The notes: generated from the sequence alone by a model not told the origin. A stretch of DNA of 64,000 nt from Acrocarpospora catenulata (GCF_018476525.1 NZ_JAHCST010000005.1:62001-126000), one strand, 5' to 3'. Shown: positions 14,701 through 48,835, numbered from the stretch's first letter. Program-made: numbers and translations.

Positions 14701-17700
14701 TGCGCTGCCGTGGCTCGCCCCCGATCTCGGGGAAGACGGTGCGCAGGCTCTCGTGCCGGTTCACCACGTCGGTCAGGGCGCCGGTCAGCGCGGCGGTGTC
14801 CAGGGGGCCGCGCAGCCGCAACACCAGCGGCCAGCCCAGGCCGTTCAACCGGCTGAGGAACCACAACCGCTGCTGGGCGGAGGAGAGCGGCAGGTCGTCC
14901 GGGCGCGGGCGGGCGACCAGCGGGGGCGCGGCGTCGGCCGTCGCCCGGGCCAGGGCTTCGGCCAGACCGGCGGGGGAGGGCGACTCGAAGACCGCCGCGA
15001 CGCCGAGGTCGCGGCCGAGCGCCGCCCTGATCCGGTTGACCAGGCGGGTGGCGAGCAGCGAGTGCCCGCCGAGGGCGAAGAAGTCGTCGTGCGCGCCGAC
15101 CGCGGGCAGCCCGAGCAGGTCGGCGAAGAGGTTGGCGACGATCTCCTCGTGCGGGGTGCGCGCCGTGTCCGCGCCCGTCCGCACCGCGGGGGTCGGGAGC
15201 GCGTCCCGGTCGAGCTTGCCGTTCGGGGTGAGCGGCAGCCGGTCCAGCGCCACGTACGCCGCCGGGAGCATGTAGTCGGGCAGCGTGCGGGCGGCCAGCG
15301 CGGCCACCGCGGGCACGTCCCGGTCGGTCGCGCCGACCAGGTAGCCGATCAGGCGCTCGTCCCGGACCGCCACGTGTGCGTCGGCGACGGCCGGGTGCGC
15401 GGTCAGCGCCGACTCGATCTCGCCCGGTTCGACGCGGTAGCCGCGTACCTTCACCTGGGCGTCGGTGCGGCCGATGAACTCCAGCGTGCCGTCGGGCCGT
15501 CGCCGGGTGAGGTCGCCGGTGCGGTAGAGGCGGGCGCCTGGCGGGCCGTACGGGTCGGCGACGAAGCGTTCCGCGGTGAGCGCGGGCTGGCCGAGGTAGC
15601 CGCGGGCCAGGCCGTTCCCGCCGATGTAGAGCTCGCCCGGCACGCCGGGCGGCACCGGGCGCAGCCACTCGTCGAGCACGTAGAGGCGGGTGTTGTCCAT
15701 CGGGCCGCCCAGCGGGACGGACGCCGGGACGGTGGCCGCGTCCGTCAGCGGGTGCCGGGTGGAGCAGGTGGTGGTCTCGGTCGGGCCGTACAACGCGCGG
15801 ATGGTGAGCCAGGGCCGGCCGTCGAGCACGCGGCGGACGGCCGCGGCGGACACCACGTCGCCGCCGGTGAGGACCTCCCGCACACCGTCGAAGTTGGCCG
15901 GCTCCTCGGCGAGCGCCGAGAACAGGCCGGAGGTCAGCCAGAGCCGGGTGACGCCGAGCGCCGGGTCGATCCGGGTCAGCGCGCCGGGCGGGGCGATCAC
16001 GATGCGGCCGCCGCGCAGCAGCGGGACCCAGAGCTCGTGCACGGACGCGTCGAAGCCGGTCGGCGAGTGCATGAGCACGGTCTGCGGAGCCGTCCACACC
16101 TCGTCGGAGACGAAACCGGCCGCGTTGCGGTGGGTCAGCGCGACGCCCTTGGGCACCCCGGTGGAGCCGGAGGTGAACATCACGTACGCCAGGTGGTCGG
16201 GCCGCGGATCCACCAGCGGGGCGTTGTCCCGGCGTCCGGCCGGGCAGGGCAGCACGTGCCGGGTGCCGCCCACGCCGGGCCGGTCGGTGACCAGGATGTC
16301 CGCGCCCGCCTGCTCGATCATCAGGCGCAGCCGCTCGGGCGGCGCGTCGACGGGCAGCGGCACGTAGCAGGCGCCCGCCTTCAGCACGCCGAGCACGGTC
16401 ACGACCAGCTCGGCCGACCGGTCGAGCAGCACCGCGACCGGCGTGTCGGGGCCGGCGCCGAGCGCGGCCAGTTCGTGCGCGACCAGGTTGGCGCGCCGGT
16501 CGAGGTCGCGGTAGCTCAGCTCGGTCGCGCCGTCCGTGACGGCCGGCGCGTCCGGCGTGCGGACGAGCTGCTGGTCGAAGAGCCTGACCAAGGTGGGGTA
16601 GGCGATGTCGCGCCCGGTCTCGTTCCAGGCGCCGAGGATCGTCCGCCGTTCGTCGCCGGTGAGGACGGGCAGGCGGCTGAGCGGGGTGTCGGGGTTCTCG
16701 GCCGCCGCTTGGAGGATCAGCGTCAGCCGGGTGACCAGGCTCTCTGCCGTGGCCCGCTCGAACAGCTCGGTGCGGTAGATCAGCTCACCGGTGATGCCGC
16801 CGGACGGCTGGTCGGTGAGGTTGAAGAACAGGTCGAACTGGGCCGCCGAGGAGGTGGCGGAGCGGGTGTCCACGGACAGGCCCGCCAGGTCGAACCCGAT
16901 CGTCTCGTTGTTCTGGAGCACCAGCATGGTCTGGAAGAGGGGGTGCCGGCTGAGGGAGCGCGCCGGGTTGAGGGCTTCGACGAGACGGTCGAAGGGGAGG
17001 TCCTGGTGGGCGAACGCGGTGAGGTCGGTTTCGCGTACCCGGGTGAGGAGCTGGCGGAAGGTCGGGTCGCCGGAGGTGTCGGCGCGCAGGACCAGGGTGT
17101 TGACGAAGAACCCGACCAGGTCGGTGAGGGCTTCGTCGTTACGTCCCGCCACGACCGAACCGAGGGGGATGTCGGTCCCCGCGCCGAGCCGGGTGAACAG
17201 GGCCGCCACGGCCGCGTGCACGGCCATGAACAACGTCGCGCCGCTCTCGCGGGCCAGCCCGAGCAGCGCCTCGTGCACGGCCGCCGGGATGGCGAAGGGA
17301 AGCAGCTCGCCCTGGTAGCTGGAGGAGGTCGGCCGCGGCCGGTCGTACGGCAACGCGAGCTCATCGGGGATACCGGCCAGAGTGTCCCGCCAGAAGGCCA
17401 CGTCGCCCGTGCTGTCGAGCTCGCGCTGCCAGAGCGCGTAGTCGGCGTACTGGACGGGGAGGGGTTGCCAGTCGGGTGCGTGTCCGGTGAGGCGGGCGGC
17501 GTAGGCGGTGGCGAGGTCGCGGGCGAGGGGTGCCATGGACCAGCCGTCGCCGGCGATGTGGTGCAGGACGATCAGGAGGGTGTGGTCGGGGAAGAGCCAG
17601 GCGCGCAGGGGGGTGTCGGTGGTGAGGTCGAAGGTGTGGCGTGCGGCTTGGGCGGGGTCGCCGTGGGTGGCGATGGTGAGGACGTCGGCGTGGTCGAGGA

Positions 17701-20700
17701 TTTGCTGGCGTGGTTCGCCGTCGGTTTCGGGGAAGATCGTGCGGAGGCTTTCGTGTCGTGCCACGAGGTCGGCGAAGGCGGCGGTGAGGGCGGCCACGTC
17801 GGGCGCGGCCGACAACCGCAACACCAGCGGCAGGTTGTAGGTCCAGCCGAGCGGATCGAGCCGGGTCAGCAGCCACACGCGGCGCTGCGCGTACGACAAC
17901 GGCAGGGACTCGGGGCGTTCGCGCACGCTCAGGGCCGGGCCCGCCTCGCCGGAACCGGCGAGGACCTGCGCCAGCCCGGCCACCGTGGGCGAGGCGAAGA
18001 GCGTGGCGACGGCCAGGTCGCGGCCGAGCACCGCGCGGATCCGGTTGATCAGGCGGGTGGCCAGCAGCGAGTGCCCGCCCAGGTCGAAGAAGCTGTCGTC
18101 GATGCCGACCCGGGAGTGCCCCAGCAGGTCGGTGACCATCTCGCAGAGCGTGCGCTCCAGCGGGGTGCGCGGCCCGCGGCCGGAGATCTCGCCGCCGAAG
18201 TCCGGCTCGGGCAGCGCCCGGCGGTCCAGTTTGCCGCTCGTGTTCAGCGGCAGCCGGTCCAGGAACGTGAACGCCGCCGGGACCATGTAAGCGGGAAGCC
18301 GCGCGCCCAGCGCCGTCCGCAGTTCGGCGACCAGGAGACCGCGCCGCCGCGTCGCGATGGGATCGTTGGTGAACGGCCCCGCGACGGACGTCGCCAGATA
18401 GGTCCCGTCCACGGCCGCGTCGGCGGCCCTGGTGAAGACGACGTCGAGGCGCTCCTCGTCGTGCGGCGACCAGGTGATCGCGGCCTGGTAGCCGTACCGG
18501 GCGGCCAGTTCCGGCCACCGCTCGGGATCGGGCCCCGAGGTCTCCGCGGCCCTGATCGCCGCCACCGGCGGGAGCAGCCCCTCCTGGACCGCCCGCGCCG
18601 CCGCGACCTCTCCGGCCACCCGGCCGTTCGGCACCCCCGTCAGCCGGAACCCGCCCGGAGCGCCCGCGAAAAGATCGTGGCTCTCGACCGCCTCGTCCCA
18701 TGACACCGCGGGCAGCGTGGCCAGCCGGCGCGCCCTGACCGGGCCCTTGTGGAGGACGACGTCGTAGCGGTGGCGGGTCAGTTCGTTGTGATCGGCCCCG
18801 CGCTTGATCCGCACGTCCACGGCCGCGGCGTCCAGCGTGGCGAAGAAGTCGGGGTCGACGAGCAGTTCCTTCTCCAGCGCGACGGCTTGCTCGACCTCGC
18901 GCCGCAGAGTCACGGCGTCCTCGCCGTCGCCGGCCTGCCCGAGCCGGATCGCGGTCCACATCGCCCGGACGAGACGGAGGTTGCGCACATCGCCCACGAA
19001 GATCCGGCCGCCCGGCCGGATCAGGCCGAGCAGCTGGTTCAGCACCCGGCGCAGGTAGTCCTCGTCGGGGAAGTACTGGATGACCGAGTTGATGATCACG
19101 GTGTCGAAGTGACCGGCGGGCAGTCCGTCGAGCACGTCGGCCGCCTGGGCGGCGAGCCTGACCTTCGCGGCCAGCTCCGGCACGGACGGCAGCCAGGCGC
19201 GCAGGCCCTCGATCGCGGGCGCCGAGTAGTCGGTCCCCCAGTACTCCTCGGCGAACGGCGCGATCTCCGACAGGATCAGGCCGGACCCGACGCCGACCTC
19301 CAGCACGCGCTGTGGCCCGAACGCCAGCACGCGGTCCACGATCGCCTGCCGCCAGCGGGCCATCTGCTCCTCGGGGATGGCGTCGCCGGTGTAGCTGCTG
19401 TTCCAGCCGGAGAAGTCCGAGCCGAACCCGCGGTGGTCGATCTCGGTGTACACCTCGTCGTAGATCTGCCGCCATTCGTCGACGTGCTGCCCGGCGCCCT
19501 CCTGGTGGGACGCGGCGTCCTCGGCCGGCACCACGTACGCGGCCAGGCGGCGCTCGCCGTGCCGGTCCTCGTGGACCACGACCCGCGCCTGCTCGACGGC
19601 GGGGTGCGCGCCGAGCGTGGCCTCGATCTCGCCGAGTTCGATCCGCAGGCCGCGGACCTTGACCTGGTCGTCCGCCCGCCCCAGGTAGGCCAGCTGCCCG
19701 TCGGGGAGCCTGCGGACCAGGTCGCCGGTCCGGTACATGCGGCTGCCGTCGGCGGCGAACGGGTCGGCCACGAACCGCTCGGCGGTCAGGCCGGGGCGGC
19801 GCACGTAGCCGCGGGCGAGCGCGTCGCCGCCGGCGTACAGCTCGCCCTCCTCGGCCGGGTTCAGCCGGCCGTCCAGCACGTACAGCCGGGTGGCGCCGAC
19901 GGGCAGGCCGATCGGCGGCGCGTCGTGACCGGCCACCAGCGGGCGGCTGATCGTCACGGCCATGGTCGCCTCGGTCGGGCCGTAGGCGTTGACCATGCGG
20001 CGGCCCGGGGCCCAGGCGCGCACCAGGGCGGGCGGGCAGGCCTCACCGCCGACCAGCAGGCCACGCAACTCCGGCAACTCGGACGGTCCGGGCGAGGGTG
20101 CGGTGGCCAGCACCGACGGCGGGACGATCGAGTAGTTCACGCCGTGCTCGGCGAAGAAGCCGCTCAGCTCGGCGCCGCCCACGAGCTCCGGCGGCGCGAT
20201 CGCGAGGGCGGCGCCCGAGCCCAGCGCCAGCAGGAGCTCGATGATCGAGGCGTCGAAGCTCGGCGACGCCATGAGCGCGACCACTCCGCCGGGCTCGACC
20301 CCGGCGCTGCTCAGCAGGTCCTCGGTGAACTCCGCGATCCCCGCGTGCGTCACCGCGACGCCCTTCGGCCGTCCGGTCGAACCCGAGGTGTAGATCACGT
20401 ACGCCAGCTGGGACGGCAGCAACCCGCCCGGTGAGCCGGCGTCTCCGGCCAGGTCCTCGACCAGGTCGGTGCCGAAGTCGTCGACGACCTCGCCGACGAG
20501 GATGTGCTCGACGCCGGGGGTCTCGGGCAGGCCGGGCGCGAGCTCCGCCGTGGTCAGCAGGCAGCGGGGCCGCGTGTCGGCGCACATGAACGCGATCCGT
20601 TCGGCCGGCAGGCGCGGGTCGACCGGCATGAAGGCGCCGCCGGCCCGCATGGCGGCCAGCATGGCGACCACCAGGTCAGCCGAGCGCGGCAGGGCCAGCG

Positions 20701-20869
20701 CCACCACCTCGTCGGTGCCGACGCCCCGCGCCGCCAGGGCGCGCGCCGTCCGGTCGACCCGCGCCGCCAGCTCCGCGTACGTGCGCACGTGGCCGCCGGC
20801 GATCAGCGCCGGCGCGGCCGGGGTCTCGGCGGCCCACCGCCTGACCAGGTCGGGGATCGTGTACCACAT
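11768..20869 (-). CDS. Non-ribosomal peptide synthetase, modules 1-3 (A-nMT-T-C-A-T-C-A-T)
   Basis: 3033 aa, ATG two bases after the MbtH stop. It begins directly with an A domain ([12 protein letters not shown]), so it is the loading/initiation protein. Module 1 has an N-methyltransferase embedded after A8 (SAM motif VLEVGVGSG near residue 523; MT roughly 466-780), then T ([10 protein letters not shown] near 926). C-A-T follows (HHIAGDGWS near 1103, A3 core near 1563, T near 1936), then C-A-T (2118, 2586, 2970). Codes read by eye: module 1 D-A-I-I-L-G-A-M-A; module 2 D-A-H-W-L-G-L-T-C; module 3 D-A-F-V-W-A-A-V-I. The A5 motif of module 3 is AWGTTE instead of YGPTE. The first residue should be N-methylated. 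There is no epimerase or terminal TE; the chain passes to the downstream NRPS. Confidence 0.95.
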
Positions 20870-21277: not shown

Positions 21278-21317
21278 GCTGAGCGAATTAATCCGGTCCA
21301 TTTCCGTGGGGGTACTC

Positions 21318-22322
21318 ATGACGCACCGAACGGCTGGATCGCATGCCGCGATCGACCACGTCGAGCTGTACGTGGGCGACGCGGCCGCCCGGTCCGGCGA
21401 ATTCGTCCAGCGGTACGGCTTCCACGTCGCCGGACGGCGGCACGCGGCGGATCACGAGTCGGTCGTGCTGCGCCGGGGCCACATCACCCTCGTGGTCACC
21501 CAGGGAACCGCCGACGACCACCCCGCCAGCGCGTACGTCCTGCAGCACGGGGACGGCGTGGCCACCATCGCCCTGCGGGTGCCGGACGCGGCGGCGGCCA
21601 CGGCCGACGCCCTGGCCGCCGGCGCCGAGCGGCTGCGCGAGGGGATCGCCGGCTTCGGCGACGTCGCCCACGTCTTCGTCGACGGCCCGGCCGGCCCGGC
21701 CGGCCCGGCCGACTCTGACGAACCCGCCCCGCCCGGCCTGACCGACATCGACCACGTGGCCGTCTGCCTGGAGTCCGGCACCCTGGCCGACACCGTCGCC
21801 CACTACGAGCGCGCGTTCGGCTGGCAGCAGATCTTCGAGGAGAACATCCACGTCGGCGCGCAGGCCATGCAGTCCAAAGTGGTGCAGAGCCGCTCCGGCG
21901 AGGTCACCATCACCCTGCTGCAGCCCCTGCCCGGCGCCCAGCCCGGCCAGATCGACGACTTCCTCAAGAACCACGGCGGCTCCGGCGTGCAGCACCTGGC
22001 CTTCAGCGTGCCCGACATCCTGCGCGCGGTGGACGAGCTGGGCGAGCGCGGCGTGCGTTTCCTGAGCACGCCCGGCCCCTACTACCAGGAGCTGGCCGGC
22101 CGTCTCGACCACCCGGCGCATCCGGTGTCGGCGCTGCGCAGCCGCGGCATCCTGGCCGACCAGGACCACGACGGCCAGCTCTTCCAGATCTTCACCCGCT
22201 CCGAGCACCCGCGCGGCACCCTGTTCATGGAGCTGATCGAACGGCAGGGCGCCACCACGTTCGGCAGCAACAACATCCGCAAGCTCTACGAGGCCGTCGA
22301 GCGCGCCACCAGGGACGCCTGA
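21318..22322 (+). CDS. hmaS: 4-Hydroxymandelate synthase (HPPD-like Fe(II) dioxygenase)
   Basis: 334 aa from the ATG at 21318 (GGGGG six bases upstream); a GTG 12 bases earlier is possible. Two vicinal-oxygen-chelate halves are seen, with iron ligands H146 (DIDHVAV), H226 (GVQHLAF) and E305 (FMELIER). The stretch SKVVQSRSGEVTITL matches hydroxymandelate synthases rather than HPPD, whose equivalent reads SKVM..GNGRVKFPI. It converts 4-hydroxyphenylpyruvate to 4-hydroxymandelate, the first step to 4-hydroxyphenylglycine. The call is strongly supported by Hmo and HpgT directly downstream. It overlaps Hmo by TGATG. Confidence 0.92.
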   Translation: MTHRTAGSHAAIDHVELYVGDAAARSGEFVQRYGFHVAGRRHAADHESVVLRRGHITLVVTQGTADDHPASAYVLQHGDGVATIALRVPDAAAATADALAAGAERLREGIAGFGDVAHVFVDGPAGPAGPADSDEPAPPGLTDIDHVAVCLESGTLADTVAHYERAFGWQQIFEENIHVGAQAMQSKVVQSRSGEVTITLLQPLPGAQPGQIDDFLKNHGGSGVQHLAFSVPDILRAVDELGERGVRFLSTPGPYYQELAGRLDHPAHPVSALRSRGILADQDHDGQLFQIFTRSEHPRGTLFMELIERQGATTFGSNNIRKLYEAVERATRDA

Positions 22323-23416
22323 TGACCTCCGCGGCCATCTCCTGGGCGTCGATGCTGGAGGCGGAGCGCGCGGCGATGGCCGCGCTGCCCGCCGACGCGT
22401 TCGACTTCGTGGCCGGCGGGAGCGGCGGCGAGCGCACCCTGCGCGCCAACGTCGGCGCGTTCGACCGCTGCGCGGTGGTGCCGCGGGTGCTGCGCGACGT
22501 CTCCCACCCCGACCTGGCCACGGTCCTGTTCGGCACCCCGGCGAGCATGCCGGTGGCGATCGCGCCGATGGCCTTCCAGGGGGCGATCCACCCCGGCGGC
22601 GAACCCGCGCTCGCGGCGGCGGCCAGGGACGCCGGCGTGCCGTTCACCGCGGCGACCCTGTCCGGCGTGCCGATCGAGGAGATCGCCGCGACCGGCGCGG
22701 ACACCTGGTTCCAGCTCTACTGGCTGCGCGACCGGGGCGTGACCGCCGAACTGGTCGCCCGGGCCGACGCGGCCGGCTGCGGCGTGCTGATGCTGACCGT
22801 GGACGTCCCGGCCATGGGGCGGCGGCTGCGTGACGTGCGCAGCGGATTCACGCTCCCGGCCGAGGTCCGCCCGGCCAACCTCAGGGCGCCCGACGACGCG
22901 GCGCGCACCCGGCGGACCGGGCGCTCCCCGCTGGCCGAGCACGCGGCGGTCACCATCGACCCGTCGCTCGACTGGTCGGCCGTGGAGTGGCTGCGTGCGC
23001 GGACGTCGGCCCGGCTGGTGCTGAAGGGCGTGCTCGACCCGCGCGACGCGCGCCGGGCGGCCGACCTCGGCGTGGACGGCCTGGTCGTCTCCAACCACGG
23101 TGGCAGGCAACTGGACGGCGCGGTGGCCAGCCTGACCGCGCTCGCCGCCGTGCGGGAGGCCGTCGGCGACCGCTGCCAGCTGCTGCTCGACGGCGGCGTA
23201 CGGGACGGCGGCGACGTGCTGAAGGCGCTCGCCCTCGGCGCGTCCGGCGTGCTGCTCGGCAGGCCCGCGCTCTGGGGGCTCGCCGCGGGCGGCAGGGACG
23301 GCGCCGCCGCGGTGCTGGCGCTGCTGCGCACCGAGCTGGAGAACGCGCTGGCCCTCGCCGGGTGCCCCGACCTCGCCGCCGCGGGCCGGCTCACGGCGGA
23401 GGTGTTCCCATGCTAG
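22322..23416 (+). CDS. hmo: 4-Hydroxymandelate oxidase (FMN alpha-hydroxy acid dehydrogenase)
   Basis: 364 aa, ATG overlapping the HmaS stop. This is a flavin-dependent alpha-hydroxy-acid oxidase: TIM-barrel protein with the catalytic histidine H259 in VSNHGGRQLDG and the FMN phosphate-binding LLDGGVRDGGDV followed by ALGASGVLLGRP. It oxidises 4-hydroxymandelate to 4-hydroxybenzoylformate, the second Hpg step. The fixed order HmaS-Hmo-HpgT is as in other Hpg-containing peptide clusters. It overlaps HpgT by seven bases. Confidence 0.92.
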   Translation: MTSAAISWASMLEAERAAMAALPADAFDFVAGGSGGERTLRANVGAFDRCAVVPRVLRDVSHPDLATVLFGTPASMPVAIAPMAFQGAIHPGGEPALAAAARDAGVPFTAATLSGVPIEEIAATGADTWFQLYWLRDRGVTAELVARADAAGCGVLMLTVDVPAMGRRLRDVRSGFTLPAEVRPANLRAPDDAARTRRTGRSPLAEHAAVTIDPSLDWSAVEWLRARTSARLVLKGVLDPRDARRAADLGVDGLVVSNHGGRQLDGAVASLTALAAVREAVGDRCQLLLDGGVRDGGDVLKALALGASGVLLGRPALWGLAAGGRDGAAAVLALLRTELENALALAGCPDLAAAGRLTAEVFPC

Positions 23417-24663
23417 ACCTGAGCGAACTCCACCCGTCGCTCTCCGATCCCGCGCTGACCTCGATGAACCTGCTCAACGAGGTGGCCGACCGCTACCCCG
23501 GGGCGATCTCGTTCGCCCCCGGCCGGCCGTACGCCGGGTTCTTCTCCGTCGAGGACGTGCACCGCTACCTGCGCGTCTACGTCGACCACATCGGCCCGCG
23601 GGTCGCCCGCGATCGGCTCTTCCAGTACGGCAGGACCAAGGGCGTCATCCAGGACCTCATCGCCAGGAACCTGGCGGCGGACGAGGGCATCACGGCCGAC
23701 CCCGAGTCGATCGTGGTCACCGTCGGCTGCCAGGAGGCGCTCTTCCTGCTGATGCGCACGCTGCGCGCGGACGAGCGGGACGTGCTGCTGGCCACCACCC
23801 CGATGTACGTGGGCGTCACCGGCGCGGCCCGGCTGACCGACCTGCCCGTCGTTCCGGTCGAGAGCGGCCGGACCGGCATCGACCTGGACGACTTCGCCGC
23901 CAAGATCGACAAATGCCGGCGGGACGGGTTGCGCCCCCGGGCCTGCTACCTGGTGCCCGACTTCGCCAACCCGACCGGGCTCAGCCTCGACCTGGAGACC
24001 CGGCTGGCGCTGCTCGACCTGGCCGCCGAGCAGGACGTGCTGCTGCTTGAGGACAATCCGTACGGGCTGTTCGGGCCGCGGATGCCGACCCTGAGGTCGC
24101 TGGATCGCCACGGCGTGGTGGTCTACCTCGGGTCGTACTCCAAGACCGCGATGCCGGGCGCCCGGGTCGGCTTCGTGGCCGCCGGGCAGCCGGTGCGCGG
24201 CGGCGGCACCCTCGCCGACGAGCTGGCCAAGGTCAAGAGCATGATCAGCGTCAACACGCCGCCCGTCGCGCAGGCGGTCATCGCCGGCAAGCTGCTGGAG
24301 AACGACTTCGACCTGCGCGCGGCCAACCGCGCCGAGACCGAGCTGTACGGACGCAACCTGCGCCTGCTCCTGGACGGCCTGGCCCGCCGCTTCCCGCCGC
24401 CCTCGCGGGTGACCTGGAACCGGCCGGGCGGCGGCTTCTTCGCCGTGCTGAGCGTGCCGTTCACCGCCGACGACGAGGTGCTCGCGCACTCGGCACGGGA
24501 GCACGGGGTCATCTGGACCCCGATGCACCACTTCTACGGCGGGCAGGGCGGCCACCGGCAGATCCGCCTGGCCTGCAGCCTGCTCACACCGGATCAGATC
24601 GACGCCGGACTCGACCGCCTCGCGGCGCTGATCAGCGAATGGGAGCAAAGGGGAGAGCAGTGA
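23410..24663 (+). CDS. hpgT: 4-Hydroxyphenylglycine aminotransferase
   Basis: 417 aa; the ATG at 23410 has GGAGG seven bases upstream and overlaps the end of hmo. Fold type I PLP aminotransferase: substrate/PLP segments PDFANPTGLSL and EDNPYGLFG, and PLP lysine K245 in GSYSKTAMPGARVGF. It transaminates 4-hydroxybenzoylformate to 4-hydroxyphenylglycine, often with tyrosine as donor, which returns 4-hydroxyphenylpyruvate to HmaS. A full Hpg pathway is thus encoded here apart from a prephenate dehydrogenase, which must come from primary metabolism. Confidence 0.9.
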   Translation: MLDLSELHPSLSDPALTSMNLLNEVADRYPGAISFAPGRPYAGFFSVEDVHRYLRVYVDHIGPRVARDRLFQYGRTKGVIQDLIARNLAADEGITADPESIVVTVGCQEALFLLMRTLRADERDVLLATTPMYVGVTGAARLTDLPVVPVESGRTGIDLDDFAAKIDKCRRDGLRPRACYLVPDFANPTGLSLDLETRLALLDLAAEQDVLLLEDNPYGLFGPRMPTLRSLDRHGVVVYLGSYSKTAMPGARVGFVAAGQPVRGGGTLADELAKVKSMISVNTPPVAQAVIAGKLLENDFDLRAANRAETELYGRNLRLLLDGLARRFPPPSRVTWNRPGGGFFAVLSVPFTADDEVLAHSAREHGVIWTPMHHFYGGQGGHRQIRLACSLLTPDQIDAGLDRLAALISEWEQRGEQ

Positions 24664-25460
24664 CAACCGCGTTATCAGACAATCTCGTGCTGTTCGGCAC
24701 AGAGGTCACCGACCGCCTCGAACCGCAGCACATCCTCCGACTGTCCGCCGGTGTCGTGGCCGCGGTCCGGGTTCGCGACTTCTTCACGCGGCACCAGTGC
24801 CAGGAGGTCATGCGCGCGCTCGAAGGCTGCGAGATGGGCAGCTACGACGAGCGGTTCGTGCAGCCCCGGGTGGCCAAGCTGGGCCCGGCGGCGTACGACT
24901 ACTACGGCAACAACGGCCTCACCGCCGAGTACTGGGACTACGGCGACCGCTCCGCCAAGGCCAGGGCCACGCTGCTGCACGGCGAGGACCCGCTGGACCT
25001 GGCCGCCGACCGGCTCCGCGAGGGCTGGCACGACGACGTCCGGCGGGCCACGTCCGGCGGACGGCCCATGTTCGCCGGCATGATCCGCGAGATCAACCAG
25101 GGCGCTCGGATGCACTTCGACGAGGTCGTCCGCGAGTTCCCCGGGCTGCTGGACGAGATCCCCGTCTGCCAGCTCGCCTTCAACTGCTTCCTGTCGATGC
25201 CGGAGGGCGGCGGCGAGTCCGTCGTCTTCCGCCGCCGCTGGCGGCCCTCCGACGAGGGCCACCGGGACGGCTACGGCTACGACTCGGCCCTCGCCGAGGA
25301 CCAGCCGGTGGCCGAGGTCAGAGCCGAACTCGGCGACGGCGTCCTGTTCGATCCCCGCAACTATCACCTCGTCCGTCCGAACGCAGGCAGTGGACGGAGG
25401 GTGACCCTGTCGTTCTTCATCGGAATCACGACGCGGGGTCCCCTCCATATCTGGTCATGA
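24660..25460 (+). CDS. 2-Oxoglutarate/Fe(II)-dependent oxygenase-like protein (TTA codon at position 5)
   Basis: 266 aa from a GTG that overlaps the HpgT stop (GTGA). A jelly-roll 2OG dioxygenase pattern is seen: H152-x-D154 in MHFDEVV, distal H236 in DPRNYHLVRP, and a following arginine (about 246) for 2OG binding before VTLSFFIG. Family members hydroxylate amino acids, free or carrier-bound. The fifth codon is TTA (24672-24674), rare in high-GC actinomycetes and usually a mark of bldA control; this could make translation of the following operon growth-phase dependent through coupling. The substrate is unknown; beta-hydroxylation of a residue of the peptide is an inference. Confidence 0.75.
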   Translation: MTTALSDNLVLFGTEVTDRLEPQHILRLSAGVVAAVRVRDFFTRHQCQEVMRALEGCEMGSYDERFVQPRVAKLGPAAYDYYGNNGLTAEYWDYGDRSAKARATLLHGEDPLDLAADRLREGWHDDVRRATSGGRPMFAGMIREINQGARMHFDEVVREFPGLLDEIPVCQLAFNCFLSMPEGGGESVVFRRRWRPSDEGHRDGYGYDSALAEDQPVAEVRAELGDGVLFDPRNYHLVRPNAGSGRRVTLSFFIGITTRGPLHIWS

Positions 25461-26521
25461 AAGGGATTCGACCGGTGAGAGAGCTCAACATCAACGGCCG
25501 CGCCATATCCGATGACTCCGACGCCTACGTGATAGCCGAGATCGGCCACAATCACGAGGGCGACCTGGCCAAGGCCGAGGAACTGCTGCGCCGCGCCGCG
25601 GCCAGTGGTGCCAGCGCCGCCAAGCTGCAGAAGCGCGACAACAAGCGGCTCTTCACCCGCCGCATGTACGACGAGCCGTACACCGGCCGCAACAGCTACG
25701 GCGCCACCTACGGCCTGCACCGCGAGGCCCTGGAGTTCGGCCGGCGCGAGTACCGGGAGCTGGCCGTGCTCGCCGCCGAGCTGGGCATCGACTTCATCTC
25801 GACCGCCTTCGACTTCGGCAGCGTCGACTTCCTCGCCGAGCTGGACCTCCCGGCGATCAAGATGGCCTCCGCCGACCTGACCAACATCCCCCTGCTGACC
25901 TACGCCGCCAAGGTGGGCAAACCGCTCATCGTCAGCACCGGCGCCGCCGACATGGACGCGGTGCGGCGGGCCTGCGACGCGATCCTGCCCATCAACCCCG
26001 AGCTGGCGCTGCTCCAGTGCACCGCGGTCTACCCGGCCACCCCGGCCGAGCTCAACCTCTCCGTGATCACCACCTACCGCGCGGAGTTCCCGACCACGGT
26101 GATCGGGTTCTCCGGGCACGACCTGGGCCCCGAGCTGAGCTGGACCGCGTTCGCGCTCGGCGCCCGTGTGATCGAGAAGCACCTCACCCTGGACCGCACC
26201 CGCCCGGGCAGCGACCACCACTTCTCGCTGGAGCCGCAGGACCTGGCCGCGCTGGTGGAGGGGCTGCGCCGCAACCGCGAGGCGCTCGGCGACCCGGTCA
26301 AGCGGCTGCTGCCGCAGGAGCGCCTCGCGCTGCGCAAGATGGGCAAGAAGCTGGTCGCCGGGCGGCCGCTGCGGGCCGGGCACCGGCTCACCGGGGAGGA
26401 CATCGCGATCAGGTCGCCCGGCGACGGGCTGAGCCCCGACCAGATGACGCTCGTGCTGGGCCGCTGCCTCGCCCAGGATCTCGAACCCGACGCGGACATC
26501 ACGCTGGGGGTGCTGATCTAG
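25457..26521 (+). CDS. NeuB-like (sialic acid synthase family) C-C bond-forming synthase
   Basis: 354 aa from an ATG overlapping the previous stop (ATGA). A GTG at 25475 preceded by AAAGGG is an alternative start. The N-terminal barrel matches NeuB: AEIGHNHEGDLAKAEELL, AAKLQKRDN, FISTAFDF, IKMASADLTNIPLL, KPLIVSTGAADM, LLQCTAVYP, IGFSGHD and VIEKHLTLDR. A C-terminal SAF antifreeze-like domain follows (VAGRPLRAGHRLTGEDI, then IRSPGDGLSP). Such enzymes add phosphoenolpyruvate to an aldose to give a 2-keto-3-deoxy acid. No nucleotidyltransferase or glycosyltransferase accompanies it, so the product may feed the peptide rather than a glycan (inference). Confidence 0.88.
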   Translation: MKGIRPVRELNINGRAISDDSDAYVIAEIGHNHEGDLAKAEELLRRAAASGASAAKLQKRDNKRLFTRRMYDEPYTGRNSYGATYGLHREALEFGRREYRELAVLAAELGIDFISTAFDFGSVDFLAELDLPAIKMASADLTNIPLLTYAAKVGKPLIVSTGAADMDAVRRACDAILPINPELALLQCTAVYPATPAELNLSVITTYRAEFPTTVIGFSGHDLGPELSWTAFALGARVIEKHLTLDRTRPGSDHHFSLEPQDLAALVEGLRRNREALGDPVKRLLPQERLALRKMGKKLVAGRPLRAGHRLTGEDIAIRSPGDGLSPDQMTLVLGRCLAQDLEPDADITLGVLI

Positions 26522-27318
26522 TGATTGACCTGTCCGGAAACGTGGCGGTCGTCACGGGCGTGCTGGGACGCCTGGGGGCGGTCTGGGTGAAGGCGTTGCT
26601 CGACGCCGGCGCCCGCGTCGCCGGGCTGGACGTCAGGGACGGGCCGAGCCCGCAGCTGAAGGAAGTGCTCGACGGCCGCGAGGACGAGTTCGTGCTCATC
26701 CCCGCCGACATCACCGAGCCCGGGCGGCTGCGCGCCGCGCTCGCCGAGTGCCTTTCGGCGCTCGGCGCGCCGTCGGTGCTGGTCAACAACGCGGGCATCG
26801 ACCAGCCGCCGTCCGCGCTCGGCGGCAGCTGGCGGTTCTCCGACATCCCGGACGAGGCCTCCGGCGGGGTGTTCGCGGTCAACGCGCACGGCACGCTCCG
26901 GGTCTGCCAGGTGTTCGGGTCGGAGATGGCCCGCCGCGGCCGGGGGTCGATCATCAACATCGGCTCCCTCTACGGCGGGCTCGCCCCCGATCCCCGGCTC
27001 TACGAGCATCTGCCGCTGGATCCGCCGTTCCTCAAACCCCCCGCGTACGGAATGTCCAAGGCCGGGGTGGCCTCGCTGACCCGCTACCTGGCCGCGTTGT
27101 GGGGCCCGGAGGGGGTGCGGGTGAACACGCTGTCGCCGGGCGGCGTGCTCGGTGACCAGGACCCGGCCTTCCGCGAGAAGTTCGGGGCCAGGGTGCCGAT
27201 GCGCCGGATGGCGGAGGCGGACGACCTGGTCGGGCCGCTGCTCTTCCTCGCCTCCGACCTCAGCAGATATGTGACGGGCGTGGAGCTCGTCGTCGACGGC
27301 GGCTACAGCTGCTGGTGA
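26521..27318 (+). CDS. Short-chain dehydrogenase/reductase (PtmA-like)
   Basis: 265 aa; the GTG shares a base with the NeuB stop. Rossmann start VAVVTGVLGRLGAVW, NNAG at LVNNAGIDQ, catalytic S in NIGSLYG, and Y176-x3-K180 in YGMSKAG. The region around DPRLYEHL and the C-terminal RVNTLSPGGV resemble SDRs placed beside NeuB-type genes in flagellin-glycosylation and legionaminic-type loci, where they oxidise or reduce a sugar. It probably acts on the same intermediate as the neighbouring NeuB-like synthase. Cofactor preference is not resolved. Confidence 0.88.
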   Translation: MIDLSGNVAVVTGVLGRLGAVWVKALLDAGARVAGLDVRDGPSPQLKEVLDGREDEFVLIPADITEPGRLRAALAECLSALGAPSVLVNNAGIDQPPSALGGSWRFSDIPDEASGGVFAVNAHGTLRVCQVFGSEMARRGRGSIINIGSLYGGLAPDPRLYEHLPLDPPFLKPPAYGMSKAGVASLTRYLAALWGPEGVRVNTLSPGGVLGDQDPAFREKFGARVPMRRMAEADDLVGPLLFLASDLSRYVTGVELVVDGGYSCW

Positions 27319-27331
27319 TGGGAGGAGAGCC

Positions 27332-29269
27332 ATGCGCAGGACGCTGTCCTGGGTGCCGCGCCGCGAGTTCCTGCGGGTGCTGGCGGAGGTGCCGGACCCG
27401 GGCGACCGGGCCCGGGCGTTCGCCACGATGTCACGGATCAACACGCTGCACATGATCAGCCGGGCCGGGTCGGGTCACCTGGGCTCCAGCTTCAGCGCCG
27501 CCGACCTGGTCGCCTGGCTCCTGCTGGCGGAGCTGCGCGAGCCGTTCACCGCGGCGGGCGACGTCTACTTCTCCTCCAAGGGGCACGACGCCCCCGGACT
27601 GTACGCCTCGCTGATCGGCCTCGGCCTGCTCGGCGAGGACCTGCTGCACCGGCTCCGCCGCCTGGACGGGCTGCCCGGCCACCCCGACGTGAACACGCCC
27701 GGCATGCCGTTCAACACCGGCTCGCTGGGCATGGGCATCTCCAAGGCCAAGGGCCTGATCCTCGCCGACCGGCTCAGCGGCCGGCGGCGGCGGGTGTACG
27801 TGCTGACCGGCGACGGTGAGCTGCAGGAAGGCCAGAACTGGGAGGCCCTGGCCGGGGCGGCCCGGCAGGCCATGGGCGAGCTGACCGTCATCGTCGACCA
27901 CAACAAGATCCAGTCGGACACCTGGGTGCGCGACGTCAGCGACCTCGGCGACCTGGCCGCCAAGTTCACCGCCGCGGGCTGGGCCGCGCTCCGCTGCGAC
28001 GGCCACGACGTCGCCGCGATCGCCGCCACGCTGGCGGAACGCCGCACGGCCTTCGCCGGGCAGCCCGCCGTCATCGTGGCCGACACCGTCAAGGGTGGTG
28101 GTTGCGCCACGTTCGCCGCCACCTCGATGGCCCCCGGCGAGTGGCGGTATCGCCACCACAGCGGGGCTCCCACGCCGCAGGACCACGACCAGGCCCAGGG
28201 CGAGCTGCTGACCACGCTGGCCGCCGTGCTTGAGCCGTACGACCTGGAACCGGTGGCGCTGGAGAGCGCCACCGTGGACCTGCCCGCCAAACCGGGCGGT
28301 CCCCGGCTCCCGGAGATCTACGGACGGCTGCTGACCGAGCGGGCCGCCAACGACGAGCGGGTGGTCGCGCTCGACGCGGACCTGATCCTGGACACCGGCC
28401 TGATCCCGTTCCGCGACGCGCACCCCGGGCGGTTCGTGGAGTGCGGCATCGCCGAGCAGGACATGGTCTCGATGGCCGGCGGCCTGGCCGCGGGCGGGAT
28501 GGTGCCGTTCGCGCACTCCTTCTCCTGCTTCCTGCACGCCCGCCCCAACGAGCAGATCTACAACAACGCCACCGAGGGCCGCCGGGTCGTCTACGTCGGC
28601 AGCCTCGCCGGCCTGCTCCCGGCCGCCCCCGGCCACTCCCACCAGGCCGTGCGCGACGTCGGCGCGCTGTCGGGCGTGCCCGGCCTGGTCATCCTCGAAC
28701 CCGCGCACGCGGCCGAGCTGGCCGAGGCCGTGGACTACTGCCTGACCGCCCCCGACAGCGTCTACCTCCGGCTGGCCAGCGTGCCCGTGCCCGCCGAGGT
28801 GGCCGCGCTGCCGGCCGCGCCGCTGGTGACCGGGCGCGGGCAGGTCGTGCGCCCGGGCGACGGCAGCGTGGTGGCGCTCGGCGCGGGCCCGGTCGTGCTG
28901 GCTCACCTGCTGCGCGCCGCGGAACGGCTGGCCGGCGAGGGCGTCTCGGTGACCGTCGCCAACCTGCCCTGGCACAACCGGCTCGACTCCGCCTGGCTCG
29001 CCGAACTGGTCGCCGAGGCCGGCCACCTGTTCGTGGTCGAGCACCAGTACGCCCGGGGCGGCCAGGCCGACCTGATCGCCCGCACCCTGCTGGACCTGGA
29101 CCCGTGGGCCCGCCCCACGCTGCGCGGCCTCGCGCTCACCGGCATACCGCGCTGCGGCGCGGACGACGAGGTGCTGACCGCGCACGGTCTGCACGCCGAC
29201 AACCTGGCCGCGGCCATCGGCGCCGCGCTGCCCCCTCGATTGGAGACAGCCGATGGACACCGTCTATAA
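27332..29269 (+). CDS. Transketolase (full length, N- and C-terminal halves in one chain)
   Basis: 645 aa, ATG preceded by GGAGGAG. The thiamine diphosphate motif is GDGELQEGQNWEA ending at DHNKIQSD. The pyrimidine-binding half has the active-site Glu region ECGIAEQDMVSMAGG and a histidine-rich PGHSHQAVRD; the C-terminal domain ends in FVVEHQYARGGQADL. Transketolases move two-carbon ketol units between sugar phosphates. A dedicated copy in a peptide operon suggests construction of a ketose-like or aminosugar precursor, as transketolases do in some antibiotic pathways. It overlaps the RraA-like gene by 17 bases. Confidence 0.92.
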   Translation: MRRTLSWVPRREFLRVLAEVPDPGDRARAFATMSRINTLHMISRAGSGHLGSSFSAADLVAWLLLAELREPFTAAGDVYFSSKGHDAPGLYASLIGLGLLGEDLLHRLRRLDGLPGHPDVNTPGMPFNTGSLGMGISKAKGLILADRLSGRRRRVYVLTGDGELQEGQNWEALAGAARQAMGELTVIVDHNKIQSDTWVRDVSDLGDLAAKFTAAGWAALRCDGHDVAAIAATLAERRTAFAGQPAVIVADTVKGGGCATFAATSMAPGEWRYRHHSGAPTPQDHDQAQGELLTTLAAVLEPYDLEPVALESATVDLPAKPGGPRLPEIYGRLLTERAANDERVVALDADLILDTGLIPFRDAHPGRFVECGIAEQDMVSMAGGLAAGGMVPFAHSFSCFLHARPNEQIYNNATEGRRVVYVGSLAGLLPAAPGHSHQAVRDVGALSGVPGLVILEPAHAAELAEAVDYCLTAPDSVYLRLASVPVPAEVAALPAAPLVTGRGQVVRPGDGSVVALGAGPVVLAHLLRAAERLAGEGVSVTVANLPWHNRLDSAWLAELVAEAGHLFVVEHQYARGGQADLIARTLLDLDPWARPTLRGLALTGIPRCGADDEVLTAHGLHADNLAAAIGAALPPRLETADGHRL

Positions 29270-29927
29270 CGAGCTGATCCGGCCCGCCGCGGAGCTGGTC
29301 GCCGGGTTCCGCGACGTGCTGGCCGAGTACAGCCCGAGCTGCCTGGTCACCGACGCCCAGCGGCGCAGGGGCGCGATCGGCGGCCTGCTGCCGGTCACGC
29401 CCAAGGACAGGGTGGCCGGTCCCGCGCTCACCGTCGAACTGGCCGTGGACGACCTGGTCGACTGCATGCCGGTGCTGGCCCGCGCCAAGCCTGGCGACGT
29501 CATCGTGCTGGCCTGCCACGGCGTGACCCGCACGGCCATGTGGGGCGGCCTGATGTCCACCCTGTCGCTGAAGGCCGGCGTCGCCGCCGGGATCGTCGAC
29601 GGCGCCATCCGCGACGTGGACGAGATCCGCGACCTCGGCTTCCCCGTCTGGTACCGCTCGACCGTGCCGCGGCCCTCGCCGACCGCCGTGCACGACCGCA
29701 CCGAGCCGGTCCGGGTCAACGTGCCGATCGTCGTCGACGGCCAGGTGATCAACCCCGGTGACCTCGTCGTCGCCGACGAGAACGGCATCGCCGTCGTCCC
29801 CGCGGACCAGGCGGAGGTCGTGCTGGCGCAGACCAAGGTGCAGATCGGCAAGGAGCGGGTGATCCGCGAGAAGATCGCGTCCGGCGCCACCGTGACCGAG
29901 CTGCTGGCCGAGTTCGGCCACCTGTGA
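29253..29927 (+). CDS. RraA / HMG-CHA aldolase-fold protein (class II pyruvate aldolase-like)
   Basis: 224 aa; ATG with GGAG seven bases upstream, inside the end of the transketolase gene. The RraA-fold metal site is recognisable: WGGLMSTLSLKAGVAAGIVDG then R-D in AIRDVDEIR (the G-x20-R-D pattern of 4-hydroxy-4-methyl-2-oxoglutarate aldolases), and PGDLVVADENGIAVVP near the C-terminus. Members cleave or form hydroxy-keto acids to pyruvate, or decarboxylate oxaloacetate. Next to NeuB and transketolase it may make or trim a keto-acid chain. It could instead be a non-catalytic RraA-like protein, but in this operon catalysis seems likelier. Confidence 0.82.
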   Translation: MDTVYNELIRPAAELVAGFRDVLAEYSPSCLVTDAQRRRGAIGGLLPVTPKDRVAGPALTVELAVDDLVDCMPVLARAKPGDVIVLACHGVTRTAMWGGLMSTLSLKAGVAAGIVDGAIRDVDEIRDLGFPVWYRSTVPRPSPTAVHDRTEPVRVNVPIVVDGQVINPGDLVVADENGIAVVPADQAEVVLAQTKVQIGKERVIREKIASGATVTELLAEFGHL

Positions 29928-30775
29928 TGCGGATCTACCTGACCGGCGCGGACGGTCTGCTCGGCACCGCCGTGACCGCCGCCCTGGCCGCGGAACCCGA
30001 GACGGCGCACTGGCCCGTGCTCGGTGTGTCGGTGGGCGACTTCGACATCGCCGACGGCACGGCCGTGCGCCGCTCGATCGACGCGTTCGCGCCCGACGTC
30101 GTGCTGCACGCCGCCGGGCTCGCCGTCGTCGACGCCTGCGAGAGCGACCCGCGGCTGGCCATGCGGGTCAACGTCGAGGGCACCAGCCACGTCGCCGAGG
30201 CCTGCGCCCGCCTCGACGCGCGGCTGGTCTACATCTCCAGCGACTACGTCTTCGACGGGCGGCGCGGCGGCTACCGCGAGAGCGACGCGCCCAACCCGGT
30301 CAGCGTCTACGGCCTTACCAAACTCGCCGGGGAGCGCCTGGCCGCCCTCGTGCCCAGCCACCTCGTGGTGCGGACCTCCTGGTTGTACGGCGGTGCGTGC
30401 GACCAGGTCGCCGAGTTGACGGCCGCGCTGCGCGCGGGGGAGCGGCCGGCCCTGATCGACGACCAGTTCAGCGGCCCGACCCACGTCGACGAGCTGGCCC
30501 GCGCCCTGGTGTGGCTGCTGCGCCACCCGTACACCGGCACCATCCACGCGGCCAACGGCGGCCGCGCGTCCTGGTACGACGTCGGCCGCGAGGTCGCCCG
30601 CCACCTCGGCGGCGAGGTGACCCGGGCCGGTCTCGCGGACTTCGGCTTCGTCGGGGAACGGCCGCGCGACTCGCACCTGCGGATGGACCGCATCGCCTCG
30701 CTGGGCCACCCCATGGCGCACTGGACCGAGGCGCTGGCGCGGTTCTGCGCCCGGCTCCCGGCGCTGGGGGTGTGA
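29927..30775 (+). CDS. RmlD-like NAD(P)H-dependent sugar reductase
   Basis: 282 aa; ATG at 29927 in a TGATG junction (a GTG three bases earlier is possible). Extended SDR: YLTGADGLLGTAV at the N-terminus, catalytic Y-x3-K in YGLTKLAGE, and the RTSWLYG segment typical of dTDP-4-dehydrorhamnose reductases. RmlD reduces a 4-keto dTDP-sugar. No RmlA, B or C is present in the window, so a role on a free keto sugar or keto acid made by the preceding enzymes is more plausible than dTDP-rhamnose formation. Confidence 0.85.
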   Translation: MRIYLTGADGLLGTAVTAALAAEPETAHWPVLGVSVGDFDIADGTAVRRSIDAFAPDVVLHAAGLAVVDACESDPRLAMRVNVEGTSHVAEACARLDARLVYISSDYVFDGRRGGYRESDAPNPVSVYGLTKLAGERLAALVPSHLVVRTSWLYGGACDQVAELTAALRAGERPALIDDQFSGPTHVDELARALVWLLRHPYTGTIHAANGGRASWYDVGREVARHLGGEVTRAGLADFGFVGERPRDSHLRMDRIASLGHPMAHWTEALARFCARLPALGV

Positions 30776-30776
30776 G

Positions 30777-31409
30777 GTGGCCGTCCGCGCGCTCTTCCTC
30801 GACTTCGACGGGCTGATCTGCGACACCGAGCGGGCCGCGCTGCGCGCCTGGCAGGAGCTGTACGCCTCGTTCGACCTGGAGTACCCCGACGCGCTGTGGG
30901 TCCGCATGGCGGGCAACTCACGCGGTTCCGAGGTCGCGCTGGCCGACCTGCGCGTCAAGCTCGGCCGGACCATCGGGCCCGAGGTGCTCGCCTGGCAGCG
31001 CGGGCGCCGGGCTCAGCTGGCCGACCTGGAGCCGGCCCGGCCGGGCGTGCCCGAACTGCTGACCGCCGCCGCGGCCCGGGGCGTCCCGGTGTCGGTGGTG
31101 TCCAGCAGCCCCGCCCGCTGGGTGGGACACCACCTGACCCGGCTGCGCCTGGCCGGGTTCTCCTCGGTGGTCACCGGAGAGGACGCCGCCCTGCACAAGC
31201 CCTCCCCGGACCTTTACCGCGTCGCGTTGCGCCGGGCGGGTGTGCCCGCCGGGGAGGCGCTCGCCGTGGAGGACTCGGTCATCGGCGTGCGCGCCGCCAA
31301 GGCCGCCGGTCTCGCCTGCGTCGCGGTGCCGGGGCGGCCGGGTCCTGTCGCGGGGGCGGATGCCGTACTCGACCGTCTCGACCTGCTCGACCTGGGGGAG
31401 TGGACATGA
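30777..31409 (+). CDS. HAD-superfamily phosphatase (beta-phosphoglucomutase-like subgroup)
   Basis: 210 aa, GTG one base after the RmlD stop. Motif I is FLDFDGLICDTE, motif II serine in VSVVSSSP, motif III lysine near HKPSPDLY, and motif IV is AVEDSVIGVRAA, with a helical cap between. This is the usual arrangement of HAD-IA phosphatases and beta-phosphoglucomutases. NeuB-type and transketolase reactions leave phosphorylated intermediates, so dephosphorylation of a sugar-like acid before transamination fits the order of genes. Confidence 0.88.
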   Translation: MAVRALFLDFDGLICDTERAALRAWQELYASFDLEYPDALWVRMAGNSRGSEVALADLRVKLGRTIGPEVLAWQRGRRAQLADLEPARPGVPELLTAAAARGVPVSVVSSSPARWVGHHLTRLRLAGFSSVVTGEDAALHKPSPDLYRVALRRAGVPAGEALAVEDSVIGVRAAKAAGLACVAVPGRPGPVAGADAVLDRLDLLDLGEWT

Positions 31410-32656
31410 CCGTGCACCCGGCGGAGGTCCGGGCCAGCCTGGCCAGGCACGTGCAGGTGAGCACGCTCGACGTGGTGGTCGACCTGGCGCGCAGCCAGGG
31501 CTCCCAGCTGGTCGACGCGCGCACCGGCGAGGCGTACCTGGACCTGCTCTCCTTCTACGGCTCGTTGCCGCTCGGCCTGAACCATCCGGCGCTGGCCGAG
31601 CCGGAGTTCGTGGCGACCCTGGTTACGGCCGCCGCGCACAAGGTGACCAATCCGGACCTGCACACGGTCGAGTACGCCCGGTTCGTCGAGACCTTCGTCC
31701 GCGTGCTCGGCGATCCCGCGTTGCCGCACCTGTTCTTCATCGACGGCGGCGCGCTGGCGGTCGAGAACGCCCTGAAGATCGCCTTCGACTGGAAGTCGCG
31801 GCGCACGGGACAGCCGGCGCTTGAGGTCATGCACCTGCGCCACGCGTTCCACGGCCGCAGCGGCTACACGATGAGCCTGACCAACACCGATCCCGCCGTC
31901 ACCGACCGCTACCCGGCCTGGCGGTGGCCGCGCCTGGACTTCCGCGACGGCCTCCGGCCCGCCGCCGACTACCTCGCCGCACACGCCGACCGGGTGGCCT
32001 GCTTCATCGCCGAGCCCATCCAGGGCGCGGGCGGCGACAACCACGTCGACCCCGCGTTCCTGCGCGGCATGCAGGAGTTGTGCCACCGCCACGACGTGCT
32101 GTTCGTGCTGGACGAGGTGCAGACGGGGTGCGGGGCGTCCGGCACGCGCTGGACCTATGAGCAGCTGGGACTGGCTCCGGACGTGGTCGCGTTCGGCAAG
32201 CGCACCCAGGTGTGCGGGGTGATGGCCGGCCGGCGGGTGGACGAGACCGGCAACGTTTTCACGGTGCCCTCCCGGCTGGGATCGACCTGGGGCGGGAACC
32301 TGGCGGACATGGTCCGGGCGACCCGGATCCTGGAGGTGGTCGAGCGCGACCGGCTCATCCCGCGAACCGCGGCGTTGGGGGGCTACCTGCTGGAGTTGGT
32401 CCAGCAGCTCGGCCTGGCTCACCCGGGGCTGGTCGCCAACCCGCGCGGGCGCGGGCTGATGGCCGCGTTCGACCTGCCCGACGCGGGCACCCGGGCCGAG
32501 TTCCTGCGGCGGATGCGCGTGCACGAACGGGTGTTGCTGCTGCCCGGCGGCGAGCGCGCGGTGCGGTTCCGCCCCGCGCTCACGATCTCCCGCGACGAGC
32601 TGGCCAAAGGGGCCGCGGCGGCGGACAGGGTGTTGTCCGGAATGGGGGCGTCATGA
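31406..32656 (+). CDS. Class III PLP aminotransferase (L-lysine 6-aminotransferase-like)
   Basis: 416 aa, ATGA overlap with the phosphatase gene. Overall resemblance is to lysine epsilon-aminotransferases: LSFYGSLPLGLNHP, FIDGGALAVENALK, RHAFHGRSGYTMSLTN, FIAEPIQGAGGDNHV, LDEVQTGCGASG, and PLP lysine K265 in AFGKRTQVCG. These enzymes transaminate terminal aldehydes of lysine or ornithine. Here the acceptor may instead be an aldehyde or ketone of the operon's building block. I see no lysine 2,3-aminomutase or pipecolate gene to support a simple lysine route. Confidence 0.85.
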   Translation: MTVHPAEVRASLARHVQVSTLDVVVDLARSQGSQLVDARTGEAYLDLLSFYGSLPLGLNHPALAEPEFVATLVTAAAHKVTNPDLHTVEYARFVETFVRVLGDPALPHLFFIDGGALAVENALKIAFDWKSRRTGQPALEVMHLRHAFHGRSGYTMSLTNTDPAVTDRYPAWRWPRLDFRDGLRPAADYLAAHADRVACFIAEPIQGAGGDNHVDPAFLRGMQELCHRHDVLFVLDEVQTGCGASGTRWTYEQLGLAPDVVAFGKRTQVCGVMAGRRVDETGNVFTVPSRLGSTWGGNLADMVRATRILEVVERDRLIPRTAALGGYLLELVQQLGLAHPGLVANPRGRGLMAAFDLPDAGTRAEFLRRMRVHERVLLLPGGERAVRFRPALTISRDELAKGAAAADRVLSGMGAS

Positions 32657-38500: not shown

Positions 38501-38608
38501 CAGTGTCACCCCTGAATATCGTTTTCCGGCGGGGCGCGTGGAGCGCTTTCCTAAGCTTTTCCTAGAGTTTTCTCGGCGGCCTGCGGCCGGGTCAATGAAT
38601 GGCCCGGG

Positions 38609-48471: not shown

Positions 48472-48585
48472 TTGCCAAAGTCCTCACATTCGTCGAGTGA
48501 GGCGGCTCAGGTAAGAGGAGCGGGACGGGTTCCCTCGCCGGGAAGAAGGTTCACGAGTACTCGTCTTGGAAGAGCCTCCAGTGTA

Positions 48586-48628
48586 GAGAGCGCTCTCGCA
48601 GGTTAGGCCGGGCTCCCTCGCTCGTCAA
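48586..48628 (-). promoter_or_regulatory. GH64 promoter with overlapping palindromic operator
   Basis: On the minus strand: TTGACG (48623-48628), 17 bases, TAACCT (48600-48605), then the perfect palindrome GAGAGCGCTCTC (48586-48597) over the expected transcript start. The palindrome is of the kind bound by LacI-family sugar regulators. Confidence 0.7.
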
Positions 48629-48835
48629 TGGACAAGGGCGACGGGCGCGCCTCGCGCGGTCCGCCGCGGGAGGACCGCCGTTCCCTCGCATCCGCCCACG
48701 CCGGTGCCACCCGCTGGTCGACGTCGCAGCCCGCACCCCGAGGGCGTGCGGCGCCGGGGCGGCTGTGGCGCCGCGACACCGGACCGCATTGACCTGCACC
48801 GGAGGGATTAACCTCCGGGCAATCACTGAGAAACA

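Follow-up and report, generated by a model that had tools for sequence, protein, structure and literature searches.

The window, the 64,000-nucleotide stretch G000:C127:62001-126000 of the 10.3-Mb genome of the actinomycete Acrocarpospora catenulata (the host), contains seven open reading frames between 25457 and 32656, all on the plus strand and tightly coupled, with junctions that are overlaps of 4–17 bases or gaps of 1–13 bases (Table 1). The original prediction had named seven enzyme families in genes that overlap or lie no more than 13 bases apart, directly after the hydroxyphenylglycine (Hpg) genes and a 2OG oxygenase, and this arrangement was borne out by the reading frames and by the Pfam families, which agree with all seven assignments. 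The start of the NeuB gene overlaps the upstream oxygenase gene by 4 bases, and the oxygenase gene in turn follows HmaS, Hmo and HpgT. Sugar-acid dehydrogenases are among the NCBIfam models nearest to the classical SDR, which scores far below the cut-off of every one of these models. The oxygenase contains an HxD motif (HFDEV, read by eye) and because of this motif is likely to be a hydroxylase rather than a halogenase; the proteins predicted from the S. zaomyceticus cluster described below include no homolog of it.

Table 1. Position of the block, its upstream genes and the associated peptide synthetase and regulator genes in the window.
Feature	Position	Strand	Remarks
NRPS2: C-A4-T-C-A5-T-TE	4845..11771	-	
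NRPS1: A1-MT-T-C-A2-T-C-A3-T	11768..20869	-	orthologous to NRPS of version-1 Streptomyces (58.6%, 3106 aa)
HmaS, Hmo, HpgT (4-hydroxyphenylglycine supply)	21306..24663	+	kept upstream of block in version 1
WelO5-like 2OG/Fe(II) oxygenase	24639..25460	+	same overlap chain as block
NeuB-family PEP-dependent synthase with SAF domain	25457..26521	+	Pfam, NCBIfam, residue map
Classical SDR	26518..27318	+	NNAG and YxxxK intact
Transketolase-like TPP enzyme (TKT)	27332..29269	+	TPP core intact
RraA-fold enzyme	29253..29927	+	R123, D124, E199 kept; D102 replaced by G
RmlD-like extended SDR reductase	29924..30775	+	YxxxK intact
HAD phosphatase, beta-PGM-like subfamily	30777..31409	+	DxD intact
Class III aminotransferase (AT3), derived from L-lysine 6-transaminase	31406..32656	+	E243A, N328G, Y63
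LuxR-type regulator	44101..46779	+	common to version-1 Streptomyces clusters

The operon runs past 32656, at once into an MqnA-like gene (PF02621; 32656–33477) and then into genes for a PaaK-like ligase and a second BCAT-like protein. The MqnA-like gene is the only PF02621 member in the host genome and none was found in the 14 relatives searched; its product looks like a cluster-specific enzyme of the chorismate-dehydratase type that would supply an aromatic unit; the gene of the PaaK/BagE-like ligase adjoins it. A second operon on the minus strand (36134–38509) contains PhzF, ornithine-cyclodeaminase-like and weak prephenate-dehydratase-like genes and suggests another unusual residue, and a second PhzF-like gene lies at 4180–5004. 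Just left of the window, the cluster goes on with the genes of locus L110 (G000:C127:52001-62000), which encode a class II DAHP synthase-like protein, a second RraA-family protein, a MenC-like enzyme of the enolase superfamily, and MlrC-like and nitroreductase-like proteins. Towards the other end (46834–52402), a gene for a GH64 beta-1,3-glucanase with a ricin-type lectin domain adjoins one for a GH81-type protein in the opposite orientation. Between 52751 and 64000 the GC content falls to about 0.62 and a phage-type integrase, capsid-like proteins and DUF3987 proteins are encoded, which suggests an integrated element.

Distribution and versions of the block

The search with NeuB in 299 genomes of the same order returned five other genomes at 62–71% identity, and the search with RraA in 395 genomes of the same class matched 5, the host included. 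At five of these loci, neighbourhood reading found NeuB, SDR, TKT, RraA and RmlD in that order. With so few matches in order and class, the block is therefore rare. An RraA alignment run against about 85,000 genomes matched 14 loci at 57% identity or more, all of them actinomycete and all with NeuB-SDR-TKT-RraA; together with one plasmid locus, three more genomes and the window, these make up 19 distinct actinomycete loci from several genera. The gene order is conserved among them, and chance can therefore be ruled out. The block of the 18 other loci mostly adjoins peptide-bond-forming enzymes. A more distant RraA match (48%) in Caldisericota (L029) was rejected as a related block, as its neighbourhood is catabolic and contains neither NeuB nor TKT. 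Nonomuraea endophytica, which has the full block, also carries at G251:C21 (L013) a second, solitary NeuB of the block type (66%) without SDR or TKT, near MFS and GSP-synthase-like genes.

The block occurs in two main versions. Version 1 is represented by the window and by the loci of S. zaomyceticus (L016), Streptomyces sp. TSRI0281 (L017), S. hydrogenans (L018) and Streptomyces sp. NBC_01237 (L075), the last on a plasmid record, and has the order HmaS-Hmo-HpgT-NeuB-SDR-TKT-RraA-RmlD-HAD-AT3, followed by the LuxR regulator. Orthologs of NRPS1 (59–60%) and NRPS2 (45–47%) were found in the S. zaomyceticus, TSRI0281 and NBC_01237 loci, and an NRPS-type stretch in the DNA of the S. hydrogenans locus that was examined. 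Thus, the co-occurrence of these families in actinomycete NRPS clusters, for which the original prediction had proposed a neighbourhood check, was found in Streptomyces, where Hpg genes and NRPS are kept with the block. In Micromonospora rosaria (L027) a minimal version, NeuB-SDR-TKT-RraA-BCAT-QOR, lies beside NRPS genes.

Version 2 comprises 13 loci (L015, L019-L026, L028, L095-L097), in which a BCAT-type aminotransferase replaces AT3 and a sugar-lactone-type FAD oxidase, present in all 13, is inserted between RmlD and HAD; HAD was not found in L028. In the flanks, as read from partial Pfam annotation, ATP-grasp ligase-type genes were found in 11 of the 13, all but L022 and L095, the latter a short contig. 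Genes for an MFS carrier, an aldo-keto reductase and a quinone oxidoreductase are usual as well, and in L025 an NRPS lies about 3 kb beyond the aminotransferase gene. The BCAT-like gene of the window (35148–36101) was rejected as an ortholog of the version-2 aminotransferase, its product being mostly 37–42% identical to those enzymes (49% to one fragmented sequence) as compared with 55–86% among themselves. The original prediction had regarded the occurrence of the block in many genomes without NRPS genes as evidence against it; taken literally, the 13 version-2 loci are such genomes, but the ATP-grasp ligases there still point to a peptide. The lactone oxidase and the further reductases of version 2 would also fit lactone or polyol products, and thereby a block whose product, a hydroxy or oxo acid or a small polyol acid, is either released or serves as a unit other than an amino acid, the aminotransferase acting elsewhere. 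We consider this quite unlikely, given that every one of the 19 loci has an aminotransferase, either class III or BCAT, linked to its block, and most have peptide-bond-forming enzymes.

The adenylation domains of the version-1 synthetases were compared for a site at which an amino acid made by the block might be used; their codes single out no monomer. A2 and A4 resemble Hpg-activating domains, and the pockets of A3 (DAFVWAAVIK) and A5 (DAFLWGAVIK) look aromatic or hydrophobic rather than polar, which would leave A1 (DAIILGAM..) or A3 for the block product. A1 to A3 are orthologous in the Streptomyces clusters. No substrate is assigned to A1, and its grouping, on long branches, is with an A domain from M. 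rosaria (96/91). On these weak grounds A1, and with less likelihood A3, is the candidate site. The first NRPS module has a methyltransferase domain inside the A1 region. A5 of the window is closest to A3 and A4 (59–60%) and A2 to A5 are all related, a kinship that suggests module duplication.

Conserved and replaced residues in the block enzymes

The NeuB of the window scored 274.8 with TIGR03569 (cut-off 399.65) and 208.9 with TIGR03586 (cut-off 340.25), both below the equivalog cut-offs for nonulosonic acid (NulO) synthases. In N. meningitidis numbering, the residues for PEP and metal (K53, Q55, K129, S132, Y186, S213, H215, E234 and H236) are kept in 19 of the 19 block NeuBs, and those recognizing the N-acyl sugar are replaced in every one (E134D, N184A, F288K, R314S). 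R314 lies in the SAF domain and is the arginine by which the N-acetyl group is recognized. When the contigs of 14 blocks were checked, several of them short, no CTP_transf_3 or NTP_transferase match was found within about 55 kb on the same contig, the nearest being about 57 kb from a block. The second, canonical-looking NeuB of the host (G000:C94:21207), for which a CTP_transf_3 match lies upstream at a distance of about 0.7 kb, served as an internal positive control. In addition, no glycosyltransferase was found among the annotated reading frames of the window, so that the lack of both transferases claimed by the original prediction held within these limits. Folds like those of NeuB and the RmlD-like enzyme typically belong to sugar-nucleotide pathways, and would be accounted for if the block made an activated sugar of the nonulosonic-acid type for glycosylation of the peptide; this is nevertheless highly improbable in view of the sub-threshold NeuB scores, the loss of R314, N184 and E134 in all 19 loci, the pairing of version 2 with amino-acid ligases and the finding of no CTP/NTP transferase near the 14 blocks and no glycosyltransferase among the annotated reading frames of the window. 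The predicted role, supply of an amino acid to peptide assembly and not of a sugar donor, is supported by the Hpg and NRPS linkage, the ATP-grasp ligases and the lack of CTP/NTP transferases near the 14 blocks, and "polyhydroxylated or deoxy" is a plausible description of the amino acid from the enzyme classes.

A similar pattern was observed in the transketolase and the RraA-fold enzyme. The TPP and catalytic residues H37, H77, H110, D155, N185, K244, H258 and E366 are kept in 15 of 15 block transketolases, and the acceptor-phosphate residues R318, S345, H416 and R474, together with D424, are replaced in all 15; the primary transketolase of the host keeps these five. In the RraA-fold enzyme, R123 and D124 (R120 and D121 of the block) are kept in all 19 copies and E199 is matched by an invariant Glu (E201) in an alignment of six sequences, while D102 of the D-x20-R-D motif is Gly in 18 copies and Ala in one. 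With D102 replaced, the enzyme may catalyse a reaction other than an aldol, decarboxylation or dehydration step. The motifs of the SDR, RmlD-like and HAD enzymes were intact in the block copies found when residues were mapped across loci. As far as the mapped residues tell, the cofactor chemistry is intact in the NeuB, TKT, SDR, RmlD-like and HAD enzymes, and NeuB, TKT and RraA appear to have been recruited with rewired substrate pockets.

The aminotransferase AT3 passes the NCBIfam model for L-lysine 6-transaminase (LAT; TIGR03251) with 559.3 against a cut-off of 520.8. In LAT, position 243 holds a glutamate that acts as a switch in recognizing the substrate. In a tree of 19 sequences the five block AT3s formed one clade (100/100) apart from 14 LATs, among them the separate LAT of the host itself. 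E243A and N328G are found in 5 of 5 block AT3s as against E and N in 14 of 14 LATs, F/V63Y is a further fixed difference, and the PLP lysine K300, the substrate arginines R170 and R422, and T330 are kept. The best PDB match of AT3 is 2jjh, which has Ala at 243, unlike the wild type. Although the NCBIfam score suggested a normal LAT, this assignment was rejected on the residue map. Without the switch, the free R422 should favour alpha-carboxylate substrates (2-oxo acids), the same job as that of the version-2 BCAT, and because of the loss of the switch (E243A) AT3 is predicted to be an alpha-keto-acid aminotransferase.

The scores and kept residues of AT3 (TIGR03251 above cut-off; K300, R170, R422 and T330) could also be taken to mean that the pathway consists of the first six genes alone and that AT3 is a lysine 6-transaminase making aminoadipate semialdehyde, either as a building block in its own right (pipecolate or aminoadipate) or as an aldehyde extended by the transketolase, as semialdehyde extension by a transketolase is known in azinomycin (PMC9570651). 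We regard this as unlikely, since the glutamate switch, to which Tripathi and Ramachandran (2006) assign, by their title as given in PMC4726150, a part in substrate recognition by M. tuberculosis LAT, is lost in 5 of 5 AT3s together with N328, and since version-2 loci have no LAT ortholog yet have the same TKT. The switch-less LAT also cautions against trusting an annotation solely because it clears a curated cut-off.

Proposed pathway and comparison with known systems

In the reading that we hold to be probable, the genes of the block form a pathway dedicated to a non-proteinogenic alpha-amino acid, a precursor which is put into a peptide by the NRPS here or by ATP-grasp ligases in version 2. 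The NeuB-type enzyme would condense PEP with an aldehyde or aldose that is not N-acylated into a 2-oxo-3-deoxy acid, and the transketolase-like enzyme would transfer a ketol unit of two carbons, with a non-phosphorylated partner as its donor or acceptor. RraA would carry out a step of the pyruvate-enolate type (aldol, decarboxylation or dehydration), the SDR and RmlD-like enzymes would set the oxidation state and HAD would take off a phosphate. In the last step the aminotransferase, a switch-less LAT relative in version 1 and BCAT-like in version 2, would convert the 2-oxo acid to an amino acid, which is probably hydroxyl-rich. In this course, the substrates, the order of the steps, the chain length and the NRPS module using the product are inferred. 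Single steps have precedents in the azinomycin transketolase (PMC9570651) and in an RraA-fold dehydratase/decarboxylase whose substrate is a 2-keto-3-deoxy acid (PMC8563752).

No described pathway with this enzyme set was found in the open-access literature searched, and the original prediction likewise knew of none. The wider proposal, for which we see about even chances, is that three enzymes have been recruited into an undescribed route to a sugar-like alpha-amino acid: a PEP synthase of the sialic-acid type, a transketolase blind to phosphate and an RraA that is not an aldolase. This route would be a mobile precursor module common to the NRPS and ATP-grasp-ligase clusters of actinomycetes. 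Dedicated precursor pathways decide which building blocks are open to peptide antibiotics, and carbohydrate-style C-C assembly ending in an amino acid would, if true, widen the known monomer chemistry. In genome mining, the recurring module could be used to find peptide clusters of two unexplored kinds, and the 19 loci include culturable Streptomyces and Actinomadura strains, making the proposal directly testable.

The block shares the NeuB fold, the SAF domain and the PEP and metal residues with the nonulosonic acid (sialic, legionaminic and pseudaminic acid) pathways. Unlike them, it lacks a cytidylyltransferase and N-acyl hexosamine genes, its NeuB falls below the NulO cut-offs with R314, N184 and E134 changed, and this NeuB is joined to TKT, RraA and an aminotransferase. 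In the aminoshikimate type of logic, an aldehyde made by a transketolase is combined with a PEP-dependent synthase. The block also combines a transketolase with a PEP-aldol synthase, but the latter is of the NeuB family and not a DAHP synthase, and there is no dehydroquinate-synthase step among the block genes.

Among HMG/CHA aldolase and other RraA-fold enzymes, roles of R123, D124 and E199 are described for the aldolase (PMC5065237), and FlDet is a 2-keto-3-deoxy-glucarate (KDGR) dehydratase/decarboxylase (PMC8563752). The block RraA keeps their fold, enolate-stabilising Arg and metal acids and differs from them in the replacement of D102 by Gly or Ala in 19 of 19 copies and in its biosynthetic context. 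In the route to the azabicycle (DADH) of azinomycin and vazabitide, the transketolase AziC5/C6 adds two carbons to an amino-acid semialdehyde and an aminotransferase follows (PMC9570651), so that there too a transketolase builds a non-proteinogenic amino acid. DADH formation differs in using an N-acetylglutamate kinase/reductase or carrier-protein route and a transketolase named as the pair AziC5/C6, whereas the block has NeuB, RraA, RmlD, HAD and a single-chain TKT, and neither an N-acetylglutamate kinase/reductase nor a LysW-type carrier was found near TKT among the annotated reading frames of the window. Finally, AT3 belongs to the same family as the L-lysine 6-transaminase Rv3290c, scoring over its cut-off with the PLP lysine and both substrate arginines in place, but it has lost the E243 switch, has N328G and Y63, and forms a clade separate from the LAT of its own host.
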